Shown piece by piece: positions 5,434-13,069 of a stretch of 64,000 bases of DNA. The notes below the pieces were generated by a model. The model saw only the letters and a program-made list of their open reading frames with translations, was not told where the DNA came from and ran no database searches. The first letter of the stretch is position 1. Each line of letters starts with the position of its first letter. The stretch comes from Psychromonas ossibalaenae ATCC BAA-1528 (GTDB taxonomy: Bacteria > Pseudomonadota > Gammaproteobacteria > Enterobacterales > Psychromonadaceae): positions 1 to 64,000 of the forward strand of contig NZ_KB906990.1 in assembly GCF_000381745.1 (NCBI RefSeq). The letters are read 5' to 3'. The translations under genes were made by a program, and so were the position numbers.

Positions 5434-6294
5434 TTATAATGGATACAAAGCAAGTTTTATATTATGCCCGAGCATATGTTCCTGTTTAAGGGTTTTGCGC
5501 TGTCGGCACATTTCATCAAAAGCCTGCTGACACTTCTCGGCTAAATCTGTTTTTTGTTTCAGGTAAGTGATGCTTTTCTGCTGATTAAACCATTCATTTT
5601 CAGCACCAAGTAATTTCATATTTATGATCGAACTGTCTTGCGGTGTTAACCAGTGATGTGCACCACTGGTCAACGCTATTTCAATACCAGCAGGATCTAA
5701 ATCAGAAAAACAAACTAACTGGTGACTGCCTGCAAAACGACGAAAGAACTGATAAGCCTTCATCGTACTGCGGTCTTCTCGGACTTCACCACGGTATAGC
5801 CATAATGCCTCTTGTAACGACTCCGGCATATTTAACTTATCAAGCACCGCCATAATTTCAAGGTTTTCCACAAAGACAATTTTTTGGTGCTCAATAGAAG
5901 TGATTTGATCGGCATTAATAGTCAAACCGAATGCAGTGAAAGGACTAACGGTGTGCACCTGTTGATTCAGCCGGATCGTATGTAAACTATTAACCAATAC
6001 ATAGTTCCGGCTGACCGGATAGGCATTGTTTTTTTCATTACGATCCCCGCCAGCCACCTCTCTACGGCTTTGCAGATCTGGATAAGGATCGCGAAACAGC
6101 TCTAACCCGTTTTCCTGAAATACTCTTTCAATTAAAGCCTGACGATCATTATCAATAAAGTGAAGATAACCCTCTTTAATATCACCAAAACTATATTCGT
6201 TATTTAAACGGGTCAATGAACTAGACAGTTTAAGCTTGCCGTTACACAGAGTTTTAAATTTCTTCTGGCAAAACTGATACAGGCCTTTGTTCAT
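5434..6294 (-). CDS. Toprim nuclease subunit, JetD/MksG-like
   Basis: Probable DNA-cleaving subunit of the SMC operon. In the 286-residue protein a Toprim fold occupies the C-terminal half, with the first acidic motif VFVEN (Glu143) and the second CFSDLDPAG (Asp198, Asp200), the same spacing and wording as in JetD/MksG. The start chosen is ATG 6294, which overlaps the upstream stop as ATGA; a GTG at 6300 is an alternative. Canonical JetD is about 380-400 residues with a separate N-terminal arm. Here only about 130 residues precede the Toprim part, so the arm is short or different. Role in cutting plasmid DNA is inferred from the family. Confidence 0.75.
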   Translation of the reverse strand: MNKGLYQFCQKKFKTLCNGKLKLSSSLTRLNNEYSFGDIKEGYLHFIDNDRQALIERVFQENGLELFRDPYPDLQSRREVAGGDRNEKNNAYPVSRNYVLVNSLHTIRLNQQVHTVSPFTAFGLTINADQITSIEHQKIVFVENLEIMAVLDKLNMPESLQEALWLYRGEVREDRSTMKAYQFFRRFAGSHQLVCFSDLDPAGIEIALTSGAHHWLTPQDSSIINMKLLGAENEWFNQQKSITYLKQKTDLAEKCQQAFDEMCRQRKTLKQEHMLGHNIKLALYPL

Positions 6295-7553
6295 ATGCAC
6301 CTTTGTATATTATCTTTTAATACAATAACCACATCATTATAACTGTAGTTATGAGTGGTCCCTGACAGTTTTACCCCCTTCATATTAATATCAAGGGCAG
6401 CCTGCTGCTCGTTGGTTAACTTACAATAACAGCTGAAAACCAGCTCAATCCACGCTTTGGGCTCGATACTTTGCGCGCTCTGCGACCAGTCTGTACACTC
6501 ACTCTGCCAGTATTTTATAGCCGAAACAGGTTTACCACTAGTAATCGCCTGTTCAAACAGACGCTCTGTCTGCTCTTCAAAGTAATCATGGCTGGCGGCA
6601 ACTTGTTCAATTTCAGTTAATTCAACCGAGGCGCTTTCCCGCTCTTTAAGCTCTATCGGACTGGCCTGTTTACGCAGCGCCTGCACGATGGCAATTAACG
6701 GTGCCTCAAGTGCACTGTTCCTGGTATCGGCATAGGATTTGAGTTTAAGAGGCGCCGCAAACTTAAGTCTATTATCAAGGCTCTGATCTTCAAAAAGTGT
6801 TTCACTAATTTCAAATTCAGGATGTTTGTGCAGGTAGCGCGCCATATTACGCAGCAAGCTGGCTTGTTTTTCATCACGACGTAAGCGGAACAAACTCAAA
6901 CGCATATTATCAATAATAAAACGCAGACGCGGCAGGGTCTGGTTAAACCAGTACACAAAAGAACTTATTTTACGTGCAAATTCAATCGGACATGCCCAGT
7001 TTGTCCATTCATAACAGGCTTCAGGATCAATCTGCTGCAGTTCAGTTAACAGTTTCTGCGCGTAAACCAAGGCACGTTCATTTTCGCGCACTTTAGCGCT
7101 TAAAGTGCTGACAAAACCAAACTGGCTGGAAATAGCATAATGCATATTATCTAAGCTGACATTAAGATTATCTTTTGCTTCATAAAGCAGGTCGTCGAGC
7201 TGATCCAGATAATATTCGGCATCATCGTACTGACTGTGTAAGATAGACAGTTGATAATCTTTAACGGTATCGTCTAATACATCAATGACTTTACCCATGT
7301 CGCTTAACTGCCGATAGCTGCTTTGTTTACGCATCAGACGATTAAGCATACGTTTCAGCTCAGCGGTAACTCGATACTCTCCGGGCTCGTCATCGGGCCG
7401 CAGCAGCCCCTTTTTATGCAGAATATTGAGCTGCCGGTTGTCTTGTTCGTCAGCAGCCGTCGAGCCGTAAACATAAGCATCGGCAAGCAGCTGGTCGTGA
7501 CAACCAATCTGTCTTAATAACTCCGCAACTTGTCCAGCATCATAACCCGCCAT
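6291..7553 (-). CDS. kleisin-like subunit, JetA/MksF-like
   Basis: Probable kleisin that bridges the two SMC heads. The 420-residue protein starts with a helical N-terminal region resembling a winged helix (QVAELLRQIG...ILHKKGLLRPDDEPGEYRVTAELKRML), followed by long helices (about 90-170) with heptad-like leucines and a mixed C-terminal part. That is the general plan of MksF/MukF kleisins. No motif identifies it on its own. The call depends on position between the MksE-like and Toprim genes and on size. Its start overlaps the upstream stop as TAATG at 7551-7555, indicating tight translational coupling. Confidence 0.6.
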   Translation of the reverse strand: MAGYDAGQVAELLRQIGCHDQLLADAYVYGSTAADEQDNRQLNILHKKGLLRPDDEPGEYRVTAELKRMLNRLMRKQSSYRQLSDMGKVIDVLDDTVKDYQLSILHSQYDDAEYYLDQLDDLLYEAKDNLNVSLDNMHYAISSQFGFVSTLSAKVRENERALVYAQKLLTELQQIDPEACYEWTNWACPIEFARKISSFVYWFNQTLPRLRFIIDNMRLSLFRLRRDEKQASLLRNMARYLHKHPEFEISETLFEDQSLDNRLKFAAPLKLKSYADTRNSALEAPLIAIVQALRKQASPIELKERESASVELTEIEQVAASHDYFEEQTERLFEQAITSGKPVSAIKYWQSECTDWSQSAQSIEPKAWIELVFSCYCKLTNEQQAALDINMKGVKLSGTTHNYSYNDVVIVLKDNIQRCI

Positions 7554-8176
7554 TAAAACAGTAACTCCTCTTGCTGCTGTTGTTCACTCTCCGGCAATTC
7601 AACACGTTCAGAGTCATTTAAAAATTCGATCAGCAGATAGATCAGATCAAAACGCGCCGTTGCATAATAGCGGCTGCTGCCGGCATTTTTACGCACTAAG
7701 TAGCCCGTTTCTTCAAGCTTCTGAAAAATCAGAACCAGCTGTTCACGCGTTTCGACTTTGTTAGTCTTAAAAGGTTTAATCGACGTTAAACGGCGAAGCT
7801 GCTCACGCAGAGTCTGATCATGTTCAAAGGGATCAAATAACTCATTAATATTAACAACCGACTTAGCACGTAACGGCAGATCAGTCTGACTGGCCGTTAA
7901 CAGCAGCTCTAAAAACTCCACCATAGGACGGAATGAGCTGCGGATATCGCTGAAAAGCGCAGTCAGCTCGGCACTGTTATCCTGGTCTACCTGTTGAAAT
8001 GTACAGTAATAGGCATCTGCGCTGTCCAGGTAGGTTAAATTTCTGTCTAAATTAGCTAAGAAATCTTCTACGCGAAGGCTGTTCTCAGGTGCTTTTAAAT
8101 ACTCAAATTCATCAGCAAACGCAGTTTCACAAATAACGGCACCGGTCAGCAGCTGTTCTACAGTTTGTTTAAACAT
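7553..8176 (-). CDS. KITE-type accessory subunit, JetB/MksE-like
   Basis: A 207-residue protein with the size and character of MksE/JetB, the small winged-helix partner of the kleisin. It is helical in the first 100 residues, then has a winged-helix-like stretch (about 130-185: LRRLTSIKPFKTN, LVLIFQKLEETGYLVRKNAGSSRYYATARFDLIYLLIEF). The tail is acidic and Gln/Glu-rich (ESEQQQQEE). It overlaps the SMC stop as TAATG (8174-8178) and the kleisin start as TAATG. The assignment is by fold pattern and operon position; sequence identity to known MksE proteins was not measured. Confidence 0.6.
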   Translation of the reverse strand: MFKQTVEQLLTGAVICETAFADEFEYLKAPENSLRVEDFLANLDRNLTYLDSADAYYCTFQQVDQDNSAELTALFSDIRSSFRPMVEFLELLLTASQTDLPLRAKSVVNINELFDPFEHDQTLREQLRRLTSIKPFKTNKVETREQLVLIFQKLEETGYLVRKNAGSSRYYATARFDLIYLLIEFLNDSERVELPESEQQQQEELLF

Positions 8177-11100
8177 TATTCAATCTCCGCAGATATTTCA
8201 GCAGCTTGCGTTTGGGTCGGGGTTTCCAGAGCAGCGCTCTCGCCGGCCTCTTCAGCCACAGCTGCCTGCTGACGTAAAGCAAGTAATTCATCCAGACGAG
8301 ATACAGGGATTTCTGCATGGAATATTTTGTTATCTTTTAATTTATAATGGCGATCATACAGCGATAGAATATGACGGTCCGTCGAAGGTGAGGCTGACAG
8401 CATAGAAATATTATTATCATTAAACATTTTCAGCAGCAGATCGATATTTTCAGCAGCTAGTTCGCCTAATTCATCAACCGGTAAAATAATCTGTGACGGA
8501 CTTTCACCTGCCCCCCTAAGCATGCCCAGGATACCGGCAAACAGTGACAACATGGCTAGGTATGAAAGACCGGTTGAACTAATCTTTTTCAACTGGCGTG
8601 CATTTCGAGCGTGTTTTAACTGCCCTTTTTCAGTAATGGTAAATTCAATATCAAAGAGATTATTATGCGCCAGTACAAAACCTTCACTAGGCAGATAAGT
8701 AGAGAGCTTCTGCATCGCATAAATAAGATCGTCAGGTATATCGCCGAGCCCTTCCCGCAGATCGTCACGATACTGTTCAAACAGTTTAGCAAACTGCTGC
8801 AGCGGTCCCCAGTATTCAAGTTCTTCCTGCTTCATCACAGTATAAACATTGATATCAGCTAAGGCGTCAAACTTGGCTAATGCTGTGACATTCTGTGACA
8901 GCTGTTTACCGATGATTTTAATACGACGGCCAAAGTTTTCGATATGCTGATAAAACTCATTAATCATATTGGCGTTAACAGTCACCAGCTGATAAGTATT
9001 TTTCTGTTTCTGCTCAGCGCTGCTTAACAGATCGGCAATCGGATTACGGTATTTAAATAACCCCTTCGCCCCCTGATAATTATCATTATCAGAAACTAAC
9101 TTCAGCCAGTTATCATAAAGCTCACTACCGGCGTGATTTTTTCTGAATGATTCATTAAAGCGATTAAGCTGCTCCGTTAAACGTTTTTCAATAGATTTAA
9201 AGTGCTTCAGCCAGTCGAAACAGAAACTGACTGCAAGATCCGCTTCATTTTTCGGTTCCGAGTCACTTTCTAAAATTTCAATACCGCTTAATTCACAAGA
9301 GCGCTGGCTTTCACTAAGCTGAGTGAGCAGATCACCACTGTCACGCAGCTGACTATTAAGTTTTTTTAACAGCTTATGGCAGTTATCGATTAAAGCCGTT
9401 TTTTCTGTGTGCAGATCTTCCAGGCTGTTTTCAAAGCCGCGTTTTTGAATTTCACGATTTTGATTATGCTCAACCAGTTTGTCTCGGTTGACATAACGTT
9501 CATTCATAAACTGACTGTATTCACGCGCTTTACGCGCCCATACAGCACACTGGTCCAGTTCGCACTGGAGCTCTTTACGCTGCTTACTGCGTTTATCAAC
9601 TTCTCCGTCGGGATCAAGTTTAGCTAAATCACTGTTTTTCTGTTTTTTATAATCAGATAAACGGCTTTTCGCACTGCTTTCAATCAGCTCAAGCTGCTGC
9701 GATAATTGATCCAGCTGACTGTCACGGTCCGATTCAACCACCATACGCTGATCCAGCATAATATTGCTCAGTTCAAATCTCTGCTCCTGCTGAGATTCCT
9801 TGAACTCGTCAATTTTTCTGCTGATCTGTTTTTTCTCAGTTGTCAGTTCTTTAATTAACGTTTCAACAGCAGAGCTAGCCTCTTTAACAGCACGATGCTT
9901 TTTCTCAAAAAGGCTCTGCTGCTGCACTTTAAGCTGCTCAAGTTTTAATTCGTTTTGATTAAGTTTCTGCTTTACTTCGCTAATGGCGACTTTCTGCTGT
10001 TCAATCTGTTTGTGAACAGCAGTAAGCTGCTGATCCAGAGTTTCAATTTTCTGGACCAGCTGTTCGCGTTTTATATCTAAAGCAGCGGCTTTTTCACGCA
10101 GCTCATTTTCGTTAAGCTGCAGATCATTATCCTGAAGCAGCTGCAGATCTAACTGCAGACCGTAAAAGCTGTCAGAATTTCCAACCCATTTAGGATCTAA
10201 GTCTTTGCGGCTAAGCTGCTGTGCAGATAACAGGCGGCCGATATTATCCTTCCAGCCGACAGCGTCAGCTTCATTGCATAAATAATGCTGCAGAGACCCG
10301 GCTTCCGGCAGCAGCTGCTGCTCTACCGCATAGCACTGCTGTTTAAGCTGTTCTAGATAACGATTATCCTGCTTATGCTGCTCAAGTAATTTCTCACGCT
10401 GTTTTTCCAACAACGACAGGTGCTGATTTTCCTCATTACTTTTCTGCAGGATCAGCATCTGATCTTCATTAGTCTGGCTAAGGCTGCTTTGGTTAACTTC
10501 AATTGCAGTTAACAGCTGCTTGTCAATAAGCGGGTTCTGCTGCTGCAGCGCCGCCTGATGAAGTTTGTTATCAACTGTCTGCTGCTGCATATTAAGTTTT
10601 AGAAATGTATCATTCAGCTGTTCGTTTAACTGTGCAAGCTGCGCCTGATAGGTTTCATTAATCACGGTTAACTGCACATTTGCCGACTCTTTAATAGTGG
10701 CTGACTGCTCTTTATTAGCAGCTGTATCTTTAACTTTCTGTAACTGCAGTTCCTGAATTAATTTTTCAAACTTGTTATGAACCTTACTGATATTACCTTC
10801 AAAAGCTTCAATAACAGCATTGATCTCGTTGAGCAGGATCTGCAGACGCGGAGCTTGATCCGCCTGCAGCTGAAAACTGGCGGCATCCTGATCATCATAA
10901 TTTAATTTATCTTGATCCAGCAGATCAATACGGCTCTGGTCTGCTTCTATCTCGGCAGTTAATTTAGCGATATCCTGTCGTAACGACGAGCTGCTCTCTT
11001 TAAGCTGCGCTTCCAGCTGTTCCAACTCAGAACGCGTCTGTTCTTTTGTCTCTTTGCGCTGGCTCTGTTTAGTTTCAAGATGCTGCTGATGGTTAATAAT

Positions 11101-11922
11101 TTCAAAATGCAGATGCTGCAGCTTAATTAACAAGCTGTCGAGATTATTAAAATCGCTCTGCCATACCGTAATTTTATCGGCAACTTTCTGAATAGCACGG
11201 CTAGCCTGAATATCTGCAAGCCAGTGGCTGATATCTTCTTTATTAAGGCTGATCTGCTCTTTTTCTTCAATGCTGCTGCGGGCAAGATGATCGCTGGCAA
11301 TCGCCACCAGCATACGTTTTACAGCATCAAAATCGAGATTCTTTTCAATCGTACCGTTAACGACTTTGTCGATATGTGAGGTAGGCTGCTCACTAAATGC
11401 AAAACGGCTTTGTAACTGGCGGATATCTTTAAGTTTACGGCCGCCGCGAAGGTTCTGAATTACCTGACGGTATTTATCTATACCTAAATAACTAGAGCAG
11501 ACACTGCCGGCACTACGGTAAATACGTTCGACTTCATTAACCGATAACGGCTGCTTGTCGCTGCCGATAAAGTGGTCACTGTTATAAGCACCATCTATCA
11601 GTTTAAAATGCACACCGCGTCCGTCACTCTTAGCCAGCATCATACAAGTTTGCCCATAGGGACGCTGGTATTCATATACCAGCATGCTTGAGTCACGAGG
11701 CAGATAATAATCGGCAAAATTTCGCGCTTGATCTACCTTGCTGACAATATCACTGGGACGCATGCCGTAAAATAGCGGTAATAAGCGCATCAAAGATGTT
11801 TTACCCGCTCCGTTTGTGCCTTCAAGCTGAGTATGACCAGTTAAATTAAGTTCATTAACCTGGCCTTTCCAGAAACTGTCGATGATGATAATGCGCAGTA
11901 ATTGATAGGCTTGCTGAGCCAT
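8176..11922 (-). CDS. SMC-like ATPase, JetC/MksB-like
   Basis: The motor of the operon, 1248 residues. A Walker A motif GTNGAGKTS lies at residues 35-43. Very long coiled-coil arms (about 260-1000, rich in Gln, Leu, Lys and Glu) flank a central hinge region. The C-terminal head has a signature loop KISSTGLSY (about 1115) and a Walker B IILPVDELGE (Asp1150, Glu1151). This is the MukB/MksB/JetC plan. The start at ATG 11922 is chosen because AAGGA sits eight bases upstream; the open frame extends to a TTG at 11952. The last 40 residues are Ala/Glu-rich. It is the first gene of the operon, whereas in Wadjet operons the SMC is normally third. Confidence 0.85.
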   Translation of the reverse strand: MAQQAYQLLRIIIIDSFWKGQVNELNLTGHTQLEGTNGAGKTSLMRLLPLFYGMRPSDIVSKVDQARNFADYYLPRDSSMLVYEYQRPYGQTCMMLAKSDGRGVHFKLIDGAYNSDHFIGSDKQPLSVNEVERIYRSAGSVCSSYLGIDKYRQVIQNLRGGRKLKDIRQLQSRFAFSEQPTSHIDKVVNGTIEKNLDFDAVKRMLVAIASDHLARSSIEEKEQISLNKEDISHWLADIQASRAIQKVADKITVWQSDFNNLDSLLIKLQHLHFEIINHQQHLETKQSQRKETKEQTRSELEQLEAQLKESSSSLRQDIAKLTAEIEADQSRIDLLDQDKLNYDDQDAASFQLQADQAPRLQILLNEINAVIEAFEGNISKVHNKFEKLIQELQLQKVKDTAANKEQSATIKESANVQLTVINETYQAQLAQLNEQLNDTFLKLNMQQQTVDNKLHQAALQQQNPLIDKQLLTAIEVNQSSLSQTNEDQMLILQKSNEENQHLSLLEKQREKLLEQHKQDNRYLEQLKQQCYAVEQQLLPEAGSLQHYLCNEADAVGWKDNIGRLLSAQQLSRKDLDPKWVGNSDSFYGLQLDLQLLQDNDLQLNENELREKAAALDIKREQLVQKIETLDQQLTAVHKQIEQQKVAISEVKQKLNQNELKLEQLKVQQQSLFEKKHRAVKEASSAVETLIKELTTEKKQISRKIDEFKESQQEQRFELSNIMLDQRMVVESDRDSQLDQLSQQLELIESSAKSRLSDYKKQKNSDLAKLDPDGEVDKRSKQRKELQCELDQCAVWARKAREYSQFMNERYVNRDKLVEHNQNREIQKRGFENSLEDLHTEKTALIDNCHKLLKKLNSQLRDSGDLLTQLSESQRSCELSGIEILESDSEPKNEADLAVSFCFDWLKHFKSIEKRLTEQLNRFNESFRKNHAGSELYDNWLKLVSDNDNYQGAKGLFKYRNPIADLLSSAEQKQKNTYQLVTVNANMINEFYQHIENFGRRIKIIGKQLSQNVTALAKFDALADINVYTVMKQEELEYWGPLQQFAKLFEQYRDDLREGLGDIPDDLIYAMQKLSTYLPSEGFVLAHNNLFDIEFTITEKGQLKHARNARQLKKISSTGLSYLAMLSLFAGILGMLRGAGESPSQIILPVDELGELAAENIDLLLKMFNDNNISMLSASPSTDRHILSLYDRHYKLKDNKIFHAEIPVSRLDELLALRQQAAVAEEAGESAALETPTQTQAAEISAEIE

Positions 11923-12148
11923 AGATAATCCTTGTGAACGGTTTTTATACAATCTGTTATTGATTTGAATATTTTGCGCTAATTTATAAGGATAGAGCGG
12001 ATTTGTCGATGATTTTTAATGAAGATTGGGCTTTTAAATGCAGGTTAAGCGGGCTTTATGGCTAATTTAGCACGGCATGACAGCGAGTTGACCTCAACCC
12101 GCTACATTATTGCACAGTTTAGACACAGTCGGCCTTTAATGTAATAGA

Positions 12149-12165
12149 AAAGATAAACAGGCCCT
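12149..12165. repeat. single end of the AGGGCCTGTTTATCTTTG repeat
   Basis: AAAGATAAACAGGCCCT matches 17 of the 18 bases forming the inverted ends of the element at 22893-23157. Here it stands alone and overlaps the nagK stop codon. It may be a solo end left by an old insertion. Confidence 0.5.
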
Positions 12166-13069
12166 AGGGTATATAATTCAAAATTGCCGCGCCGCGCACT
12201 CCGCCGGTACCTCCGAATTTTGCTGTGGTAATTTTAGGTAACAAAACGTTCGGTAACAGATGCTCCGGCAGACGTTTAGGCAGTTCTTCATGTAATACTT
12301 CAAAGCTCGATAACCCGCCGCCAAATACAATCACATCGGGATCTAAGACTAAAATTGCCGTGCCTAAACCGGCAGCCAGAATATCAAAATAAATATCCAC
12401 GACTTTACAGGCAAGTTGATCACCGGCCCGGTACTTTTCAATAATTTCAGGTCCTTTTAAGACTTCCTTAGCATAATGCAGATACAAGTTGCCTAACCCG
12501 GTTCCGGACATATAGGTTTCTAAACACATTTGACGACCGCAGCCGCAGGTTATATTCGGTAAATCAGGATGCTGTAAAAATAGTGTTGCAGGCAGCGGAT
12601 AATGGCCCACTTCACCGGCAAAGGAATTATAACCGCTATGAATCGCACCATTAACAAAAATTGCACCACCGACACCAGTACCAAGTGTGATGCCGATAGC
12701 CGTTGAACATCCGTCCGCACTACCGCCGTAACACTCTGAAAGCAGAAAACAGTTAGCATCATTCTCTAATTTAACCGGGCGATCCAGAAGATCTGACAAA
12801 TCAGCGGCTAAATTACGCCCTTTAATGGCAGGCACGTTTGCACAATATAAGGTCTTATCCTGTTGATTTATTGCCCCGGGAAATCCCATACCAACGGCAC
12901 CGATGCAGTCAAACTGCTGATCTGCATTTTTGACCATAGCGCAGACAATCTGCAGAAATGAATCATAATCATCAGGTGTCGGCCGCTGATCTTCGAACAG
13001 ACAGTTCAACGCCTGATCATAAACAGAAAAAGCAATTTTAGTACCGCCAACATCAAATCCGTACAACAT
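12164..13069 (-). CDS. nagK: N-acetylglucosamine kinase (ROK family)
   Basis: Phosphorylates N-acetyl-D-glucosamine from wall recycling or chitin breakdown. The 301-residue protein opens with the ATP-binding MLYGFDVGGTKIAF, has the catalytic ENDANCF (Asp), the glycine-rich ITLGTGVGG, the ROK signature, a zinc site in CGCGRQMCLETY, and a closing GGTGGVRGAAIL. Length and motifs match NagK (about 303). ATG 13069 follows AAAAGGAAC and starts exactly at the family N-terminus; the frame upstream to 13114 lacks such support. It stands alone on the minus strand, downstream of a 265-base gap. Other ROK sugar kinases, such as fructokinase, remain possible. Confidence 0.85.
   Translation of the reverse strand: MLYGFDVGGTKIAFSVYDQALNCLFEDQRPTPDDYDSFLQIVCAMVKNADQQFDCIGAVGMGFPGAINQQDKTLYCANVPAIKGRNLAADLSDLLDRPVKLENDANCFLLSECYGGSADGCSTAIGITLGTGVGGAIFVNGAIHSGYNSFAGEVGHYPLPATLFLQHPDLPNITCGCGRQMCLETYMSGTGLGNLYLHYAKEVLKGPEIIEKYRAGDQLACKVVDIYFDILAAGLGTAILVLDPDVIVFGGGLSSFEVLHEELPKRLPEHLLPNVLLPKITTAKFGGTGGVRGAAILNYIP

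Follow-up and report, generated by a model that had tools for sequence, protein, structure and literature searches.

Complexes built on structural maintenance of chromosomes (SMC) proteins extrude DNA loops by ATP-driven engagement of the SMC heads in a ring closed by a kleisin. Here we examine a four-gene operon that encodes an SMC ATPase, a kite subunit, a kleisin and a Toprim nuclease in a 64,000-nucleotide stretch of Psychromonas ossibalaenae ATCC BAA-1528 DNA (contig NZ_KB906990.1, positions 1 to 64,000; the window), and compare it with the closest described systems. The same four components in one operon, with a kite of the MksE family, are found in Wadjet/MksBEFG (JetABCD, EptABCD), the nuclease of which is thought to fire after extrusion has recognized a small circle (passages of PMC12287153 and PMC10586767). 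One distinction is in the gene order, which is mksFEBG in the MksBEFG operon presented in a section of PMC10123090 and SMC-kite-kleisin-nuclease in Psychromonas; the kleisin-kite-SMC-nuclease order of Wadjet type I and MksBEFG is not that of the window operon. Furthermore, the Psychromonas SMC belongs to DUF3584 and the nuclease of 286 amino acids (aa) to DUF7281, PADLOC makes no convincing call, and the complex is universal in a genus in which no other SMC complex was found.

MksBEF of Pseudomonas aeruginosa, which is without the nuclease, is also an Mks-group complex with a chromosomal role; it coexists with Smc (a passage of PMC7485682), whereas Psychromonas yielded no Smc and has kept the nuclease in most genomes. 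MukBEF replaced Smc-ScpAB as the chromosomal SMC complex in enterobacteria and their relatives (a further passage of PMC10586767), and the window kleisin is probably of the MukF kind, judging by a fold predicted with low confidence. However, the muk genes run F-E-B, as judged by open reading frame (ORF) size in 8 loci, as opposed to SMC-kite-kleisin; MukBEF has no nuclease according to a section of PMC7617805, whereas the Psychromonas complex mostly has one; the MukB N-terminal profile (PF04310) matches neither the window SMC nor any other SMC gene of this family in the genus; and no MatP was found in Psychromonas. With Smc-ScpAB the likeness would be one of chromosomal function; its profiles (SMC_N, PF02463, and ScpA, PF02616) gave no match for the window complex, and neither ScpA nor a canonical Smc was found in Psychromonas.

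The four products of the window operon form an SMC complex that belongs to the Mks/Wadjet group. With a probability of roughly 0.55, we propose that in Psychromonas this complex is the sole chromosomal SMC complex and probably still cuts small circular DNA, and the results suggest that a defense system took over a housekeeping job with its DNA-cutting part kept. The parts of the operon are already known from the Mks/Wadjet group, and it is the sole-SMC state of Psychromonas that is worth attention. A 2025 census of the group mentions, in a passage of PMC7617805, several members without a nuclease, and the DUF3584-MksE-kleisin-DUF7281 family may be listed in its supplement. Bacteria encoding only MukBEF and MksBEF are mentioned in a passage of a Borrelia paper (PMC10406323), so that cells with Mks alone may already have a precedent. 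Our literature search, which was conducted partly by title and had subscription papers outside its scope, returned no paper discussing the DUF3584-MksE-kleisin-DUF7281 family and no description of a nuclease-bearing complex as the only SMC complex of a cell.

SMC complexes in Psychromonas and its order

The set of relatives included 60 genomes, 24 of Psychromonas (G000-G023, of which G001, G004 and G013 are less than 90% complete) and 36 of other members of the order. The DUF3584 profile, PF12128, has one match in each of the 24 Psychromonas genomes, the copy of G001 being cut by a contig end, and is present in 12 of the 36 others. By contrast, ScpA was found in 0/24 Psychromonas genomes versus 18/36 others, and MatP in 0/24 versus 9/36. 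MukB, which is present at full length in 12 of the 36 other genomes, was likewise not found in any of the 24, barring one match in G003 (23.8 bits, 55 positions), which lies in an ORF of 544 aa; this candidate was rejected, since the match is partial and the ORF is too short for an SMC. SeqA is present in 23 of the 24, in one of them with in-frame stops. Elsewhere in the order, three genomes (G034, G058 and G047) have full MukB and no MatP match; thus, MukBEF and MatP are not always paired.

Among the SMC_N matches listed (to E of about 2e-17), no canonical Smc was found in Psychromonas: the ORFs are of 359-376 aa (RecF size) and 559-602 aa (RecN size), with one of 431 aa and one of 544 aa. 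Outside Psychromonas, 18 of the 36 genomes have Smc ORFs that are 1113-1212 aa long, with best matches at E ≤2e-30, and G035 and G039 have Smc pieces. Altogether, 30 of the 36 have full Smc or MukB and two have Smc pieces, with neither found in G025, G046, G050 and G057. The absence of one family on its own decides little, because G049 has an Smc ORF without a ScpA match; in Psychromonas all of these families are missing together. A long AAA_29 P-loop ORF type, found in 21 of the 24 Psychromonas genomes among the matches listed, was considered as a second large SMC and rejected, as it is SbcC in 21/21 genomes: it lies beside SbcD in G000 and is homologous in the 20/20 further Psychromonas genomes read. 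This SbcC is a separate gene elsewhere in G000, which also excludes a RecF/SbcC identity of the window SMC gene. Two genomes of family f3, G025 and G050, yielded no PF12128, ScpA, MukB, MatP, SeqA or canonical Smc, and this family is possibly without any known SMC complex.

The chromosomal site of smc is consistent with these counts. The order cysZ-smc-zipA-ligA is found in all four Smc-bearing genomes read (G024, G056, G028 and Ferrimonas senticii), and in all four Psychromonas genomes read (G000, G007, G011 and G022) cysZ is followed by zipA-ligA within about 150-430 bases, with no smc. The same site in G034, a MukBEF genome, looks like that of Psychromonas and has no smc. Gene identities were confirmed with NCBIfam for CysZ and ZipA in G000 and G024, LigA in G000 and Smc in G024, and the other genomes were tied to these by BLAST. 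In the single-contig genome G006, the usual ligA was not found among the family matches; its NAD-dependent DNA ligase matches are all below the cut-off, at G006:C1:2840701-2842479 (best 277.7 versus 444 bits).

Could the takeover be shared with Ferrimonas, the SMC of which has 44% identity? This was rejected, as both Ferrimonas genomes have canonical Smc ORFs. The same is the case for all four named genomes outside Psychromonas that carry relatives of the window SMC and were searched (the two Ferrimonas, Methylobacter and Vreelandella); therefore, Psychromonas so far stands alone in its sole-SMC state. The genus forms one clade in the rpoB tree, and its neighbors use MukBEF or Smc together with a DUF3584 complex, the deeper links being weakly supported.

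As far as the trees tell, inheritance of the complex is largely, though not strictly, vertical. A DUF1415 or ROK-type neighbor (names assigned in this analysis) lies upstream in 20 of the 22 fetched Psychromonas loci, and 11 of 19 bipartitions are common to the core tree and the rpoB tree. Across 153 genus pairs, the identity ranks follow those of RpoB (Spearman 0.84 for SMC, 0.79 for kite and 0.86 for kleisin), with mean pairwise identities of 0.80 for kite, 0.73 for kleisin, 0.70 for SMC, 0.455 for the nuclease and 0.93 for RpoB. The ratio of nonsynonymous to synonymous substitution rates (dN/dS) in six close pairs is 0.022-0.113 for SMC, 0.005-0.036 for kite, 0.012-0.080 for kleisin and 0.087-0.243 for the nuclease. 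Purifying selection on SMC, kite and kleisin is strong, and the nuclease changes faster.

Operon anatomy and predicted proteins

The first-pass annotation of the window had placed four genes of an Mks/Wadjet-group complex at 5434..11922, and all four are present there, with the overlaps that it had read at the three junctions reproduced exactly (Table 1). The genes are translationally coupled in the order SMC-kite-kleisin-nuclease, i.e., C-B-A-D. Its motif assignments also hold: Walker A (GTNGAGKTS), the signature (SSTG) and the Asp-Glu Walker B are all located in the SMC, the predicted VEN and DLD motifs of the nuclease are seen as VEN, YRG, DLDPAG and QE, and the four-part composition is supported. 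The profile searches that it had proposed gave matches to PF12128 and DUF7281 and no convincing PADLOC Jet set. As for the folds of the two middle genes, the C-terminal winged helix of the kite is modeled with confidence, and the winged helices of the kleisin appear in a low-confidence model only.

Table 1. Features of the four-gene operon in the window
Feature	Position	Strand	Details
SMC ATPase (PF12128/DUF3584)	8176-11922	-	1248 aa; best start ATG at 11922, preceded by AAGGA; in-frame TTG at 11952 possible
Kite subunit, MksE family	7553-8176	-	207 aa; TAATG coupling to SMC gene
Kleisin, probably of MukF/JetA kind	6291-7553	-	420 aa; TAATG coupling; winged helices at both ends and helical middle (low-confidence model)
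Toprim nuclease (PF23947/DUF7281), JetD/MksG-like	5434-6294	-	286 aa; ATG start; ATGA coupling; in-frame GTG at 6300 possible

The window SMC matches PF12128 over its full length with 1133.9 bits (Pfam profile search). It is composed of N- and C-terminal head halves and two coiled-coil-like stretches, with a probable hinge near residues 535-600 that was placed from composition and conserved positions, and its motifs start at residues 35 (Walker A), 1115 (signature) and 1145 (Walker B, with flanking IILPV). GTNGAGKT, SSTG and VDELGE are invariant across 12 SMC proteins, 10 from Psychromonas and two from family f2. In PADLOC, the window SMC has only mad8 (0.0052) and JetC2 (0.0075) matches, and none of the four window proteins matched NCBIfam above the cut-off. 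Profile-profile comparison of the SMC heads gave 16 versus MukB and 62 versus Smc, the latter over 30 columns only.

The MksE profile PF21980 was matched by 16 of the 17 kites aligned, from the order, Methylobacter, Ferrimonas, plasmids and phage, at E ≤0.01 (best 1e-12). The sole member that did not reach E 0.01 is the window kite, the membership of which follows from homology to the others. Its model has a mean predicted local distance difference test (pLDDT) score of 67, and chains of JetABC structures rank first and second among its Foldseek matches, at weak E values of 0.11 and 0.17. A profile-profile comparison with MukE was not informative (probability 3.1), and sequence searches of the PDB with the operon proteins returned no Muk or Jet chain, the nearest match being that of the kite to a fragment of Smc5, weak at 0.042. 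For the third gene, a low-confidence predicted model (mean pLDDT 61.9, predicted template modeling score 0.36), with winged helices at both ends, points to a kleisin of the MukF/JetA kind. Foldseek ranks 1-10 of this model are all MukBEF, MukE-MukF, MukF or JetABC structures, with E values of 0.005-0.37 (none ≤0.001) and template modeling scores of 0.10-0.25 on the query. In G001, a draft genome, the kleisin ORF appears shortened.

The window nuclease matches PF23947/DUF7281 at E 8e-45, JetD_C with 20.5 bits (E 3e-4), which is slightly under the cut-off of 22, and PADLOC JetD1 at 2.8e-5. Nine different JetD models were matched by some of the 15 aligned members, a weak but consistent similarity that covers JetD types 1 and 3 and, for a single member, also type 2. 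The catalytic motifs VEN (E-N), YRG, DxDPxG and the C-terminal QE are kept in all 22 Psychromonas copies. A profile search of ten genomes, eight of them Psychromonas, did not find the nuclease in G004, G007 and G049. In G004 and G007, SMC, kite and kleisin are intact; G004 is only 79% complete, although the locus lies undamaged on a contig of 1.38 Mb. In G007, the gene right after the kleisin gene, which we take to be FKBP-type, is found downstream of the nuclease in G006 and G021, and therefore the absence in G007 looks like a deletion. Nuclease loss was wrongly considered for G006 and G021, where the gene sits about 5 kb downstream of the core. Several genes lie between the kleisin and nuclease genes at these loci (L012/L119 in G006 and L013/L120 in G021), presumably including a kbl/tdh-like pair.

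The gene-order family on chromosomes, plasmids and phage

We surveyed 34 loci from other genomes, 22 of Psychromonas and 12 of the rest of the order, and found the SMC-kite-kleisin order in 33 of them, a recurrence far beyond chance; the remaining locus breaks off within the SMC gene. In 23 of the 33, BLAST with the window copy places the nuclease after the core within the fetched stretch. The annotation had described C-B-A-D as a rearranged order and the operon as a distinct branch; the diverged branch stands, whereas a rearrangement peculiar to this locus is not supported, as C-B-A-D is the usual layout of the family across the order, plasmids and cyanophage. A second PF12128 clade in the order carries GTNASGKTT and SSSHG (SSSHGMAY) in place of GTNGAGKT and SSTG. 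At five loci of this second clade (L023, L025, L029, L035 and L040), SMC-kite-kleisin stands in Smc-bearing genomes, and BLAST with the window nuclease, which could miss distant copies, found no nuclease in the flanks. Across a class-wide sample, which itself contains G000 and G029, PF12128 is above the cut-off in 7 of 274 genomes, and a scan of genome contigs yielded at least 6 loci.

The tblastn search with the window SMC matched 43 plasmid records and one phage, all at less than 60% identity. Five of these 44 mobile records were examined: four are plasmids, from Rhodoferax, Vibrio breoganii, Marinobacter (typed conjugative) and Enterobacter (IncC), and one is the Dolichospermum phage Dfl-JY45. 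Each has four homologous genes in the same order, recognized by the profiles of the chromosomal set. The 209-kb cyanophage Dfl-JY45 (L132, PP438435.1) carries the complete four-gene set at 5968-12323, all annotated as hypothetical, and this set is a phage-borne Wadjet-like system. On the Enterobacter hormaechei IncC plasmid (L131, NZ_OR497351.1; 1-14727), the neighbors of the set include a WYL regulator and Tn7-type transposition genes. Its SMC gene is split by an IS256-type element. PADLOC matched neither JetA nor JetB in the window operon, nor the JetA-D models of any one Wadjet type (I, II or III) together, and among 10 proteins of the mobile relatives it assigned only one kite to JetB1 (3e-4) and one nuclease to JetD2 (0.0014). 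The one SMC of a mobile relative that was scanned matched AriA (8e-5) and PtuA (3e-4), not JetC.

Proposed chromosomal role and plasmid defense

Because it is the only SMC complex found in Psychromonas, the complex most likely stands in for Smc-ScpAB or MukBEF. The SMC dimer would be an ATP-driven motor, with the kleisin closing the ring and the kite assisting, and the complex would extrude chromosomal loops and help to segregate sister chromosomes. The nuclease would most likely cut small circular DNA once a loop consumes the whole molecule, and the chromosome would be spared as too large for full extrusion; since a large chromosome cannot be fully extruded, one machine could both organize the chromosome and cut plasmids. 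We infer in this way a chromosomal role, loop extrusion and plasmid cutting, and more tentatively, at slightly under even odds, an intermediate between immunity and chromosome biology, in which one nuclease-armed Wadjet-type complex replaced Smc-ScpAB or MukBEF and both organizes the chromosome and destroys small circles. In contrast, a jetABCD deletion in Clostridium cellulovorans left growth and morphology unaffected (a passage of PMC12287153).

Several results weigh against this reading. The three core proteins have diverged faster than RpoB (mean identity 0.70-0.80 versus 0.93), the core tree recovers no more than 7 of the 12 rpoB bipartitions that are well supported, and the RpoB dN/dS of 0.014-0.045 is a loose yardstick, as in most pairs its dS is lower by several fold. 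At the sequence level, no meaningful match was obtained for the kleisin, its identity rests on a model with a mean pLDDT of 62, and its profile-profile comparison with MukF was not informative (probability 1.5). Judging by G025 and G050, which belong to the same order, some bacteria seem to live with no recognized SMC complex, so that the absence of other complexes is no proof of a takeover. The mobile relatives on plasmids and in phage, and the invariant catalytic motifs of a nuclease present in 22 of 24 genomes, are what a pure defense system would predict, that is, an anti-plasmid defense fixed by selection in cells that organize their chromosome without an SMC complex. This explanation would also account for the nuclease evolving fastest, like arms-race genes (identity 0.455 versus 0.70-0.80), and would be in keeping with G025 and G050, which seem to be without any SMC complex, and with SMC complexes missing from a few bacteria, as put in a passage of a review (PMC4255302). 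Nevertheless, we consider it rather unlikely. Defense systems are usually patchy, and this family is patchy elsewhere (7/274), yet it is present in 24/24 Psychromonas genomes, with a conserved neighborhood in 20/22 loci, low dN/dS of SMC, kite and kleisin, and smc gone from its site in 4/4 genomes read; moreover, the three core genes persist in the genomes that yielded no nuclease, a state that should not last in pure defense. The proposal of the first-pass annotation that the operon is mainly for defense is, accordingly, not borne out in a genus where the complex is universal, single copy, largely vertical and the only SMC complex found.

The complex might instead be a chromosomal condensin, the fourth subunit of which no longer defends and acts in maintenance, e.g., by cutting or resolving entangled sister DNA. 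Such a role would be compatible with the distant likeness of the Toprim domain to Topo VI/Spo11 (one plasmid homologue matches that Toprim model weakly, at 0.0057, below the cut-off), with the purifying selection on the nuclease (dN/dS 0.087-0.243) and with its position about 5 kb apart from the core in G006 and G021. It appears improbable, however, given that no nuclease was found in 2/24 genomes, that the sequence changes fast and that the relative MksG acts in plasmid defense (a passage of PMC10123090). Finally, an unrecognized second SMC complex, missed by the profile searches, could do the chromosomal work: the window SMC is itself absent among the SMC_N and AAA_29 matches listed, these were loose first-look searches that an equally diverged second SMC could escape, and the finding of no other SMC complex in 24 genomes comes from searches that did not include ScpB, MukE and MukF. 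However, of the 36 genomes outside the genus, the same searches gave a full Smc or MukB in 30 and Smc pieces in two, the long P-loop ORFs listed for the genus are SbcC, the smc site is empty in 4/4 and PF12128 is single copy, all of which makes such a complex very improbable.

For the preferred reading, in which a Wadjet/Mks-group complex is the sole chromosomal SMC complex of Psychromonas, the significance is twofold. The DUF3584-MksE-kleisin-DUF7281 family, with its C-B-A-D order, is barely detected by PADLOC models, though it is present on plasmids and in phage. Psychromonas, where the one SMC complex found bears a nuclease, makes the proposed link from defense to the chromosome testable.

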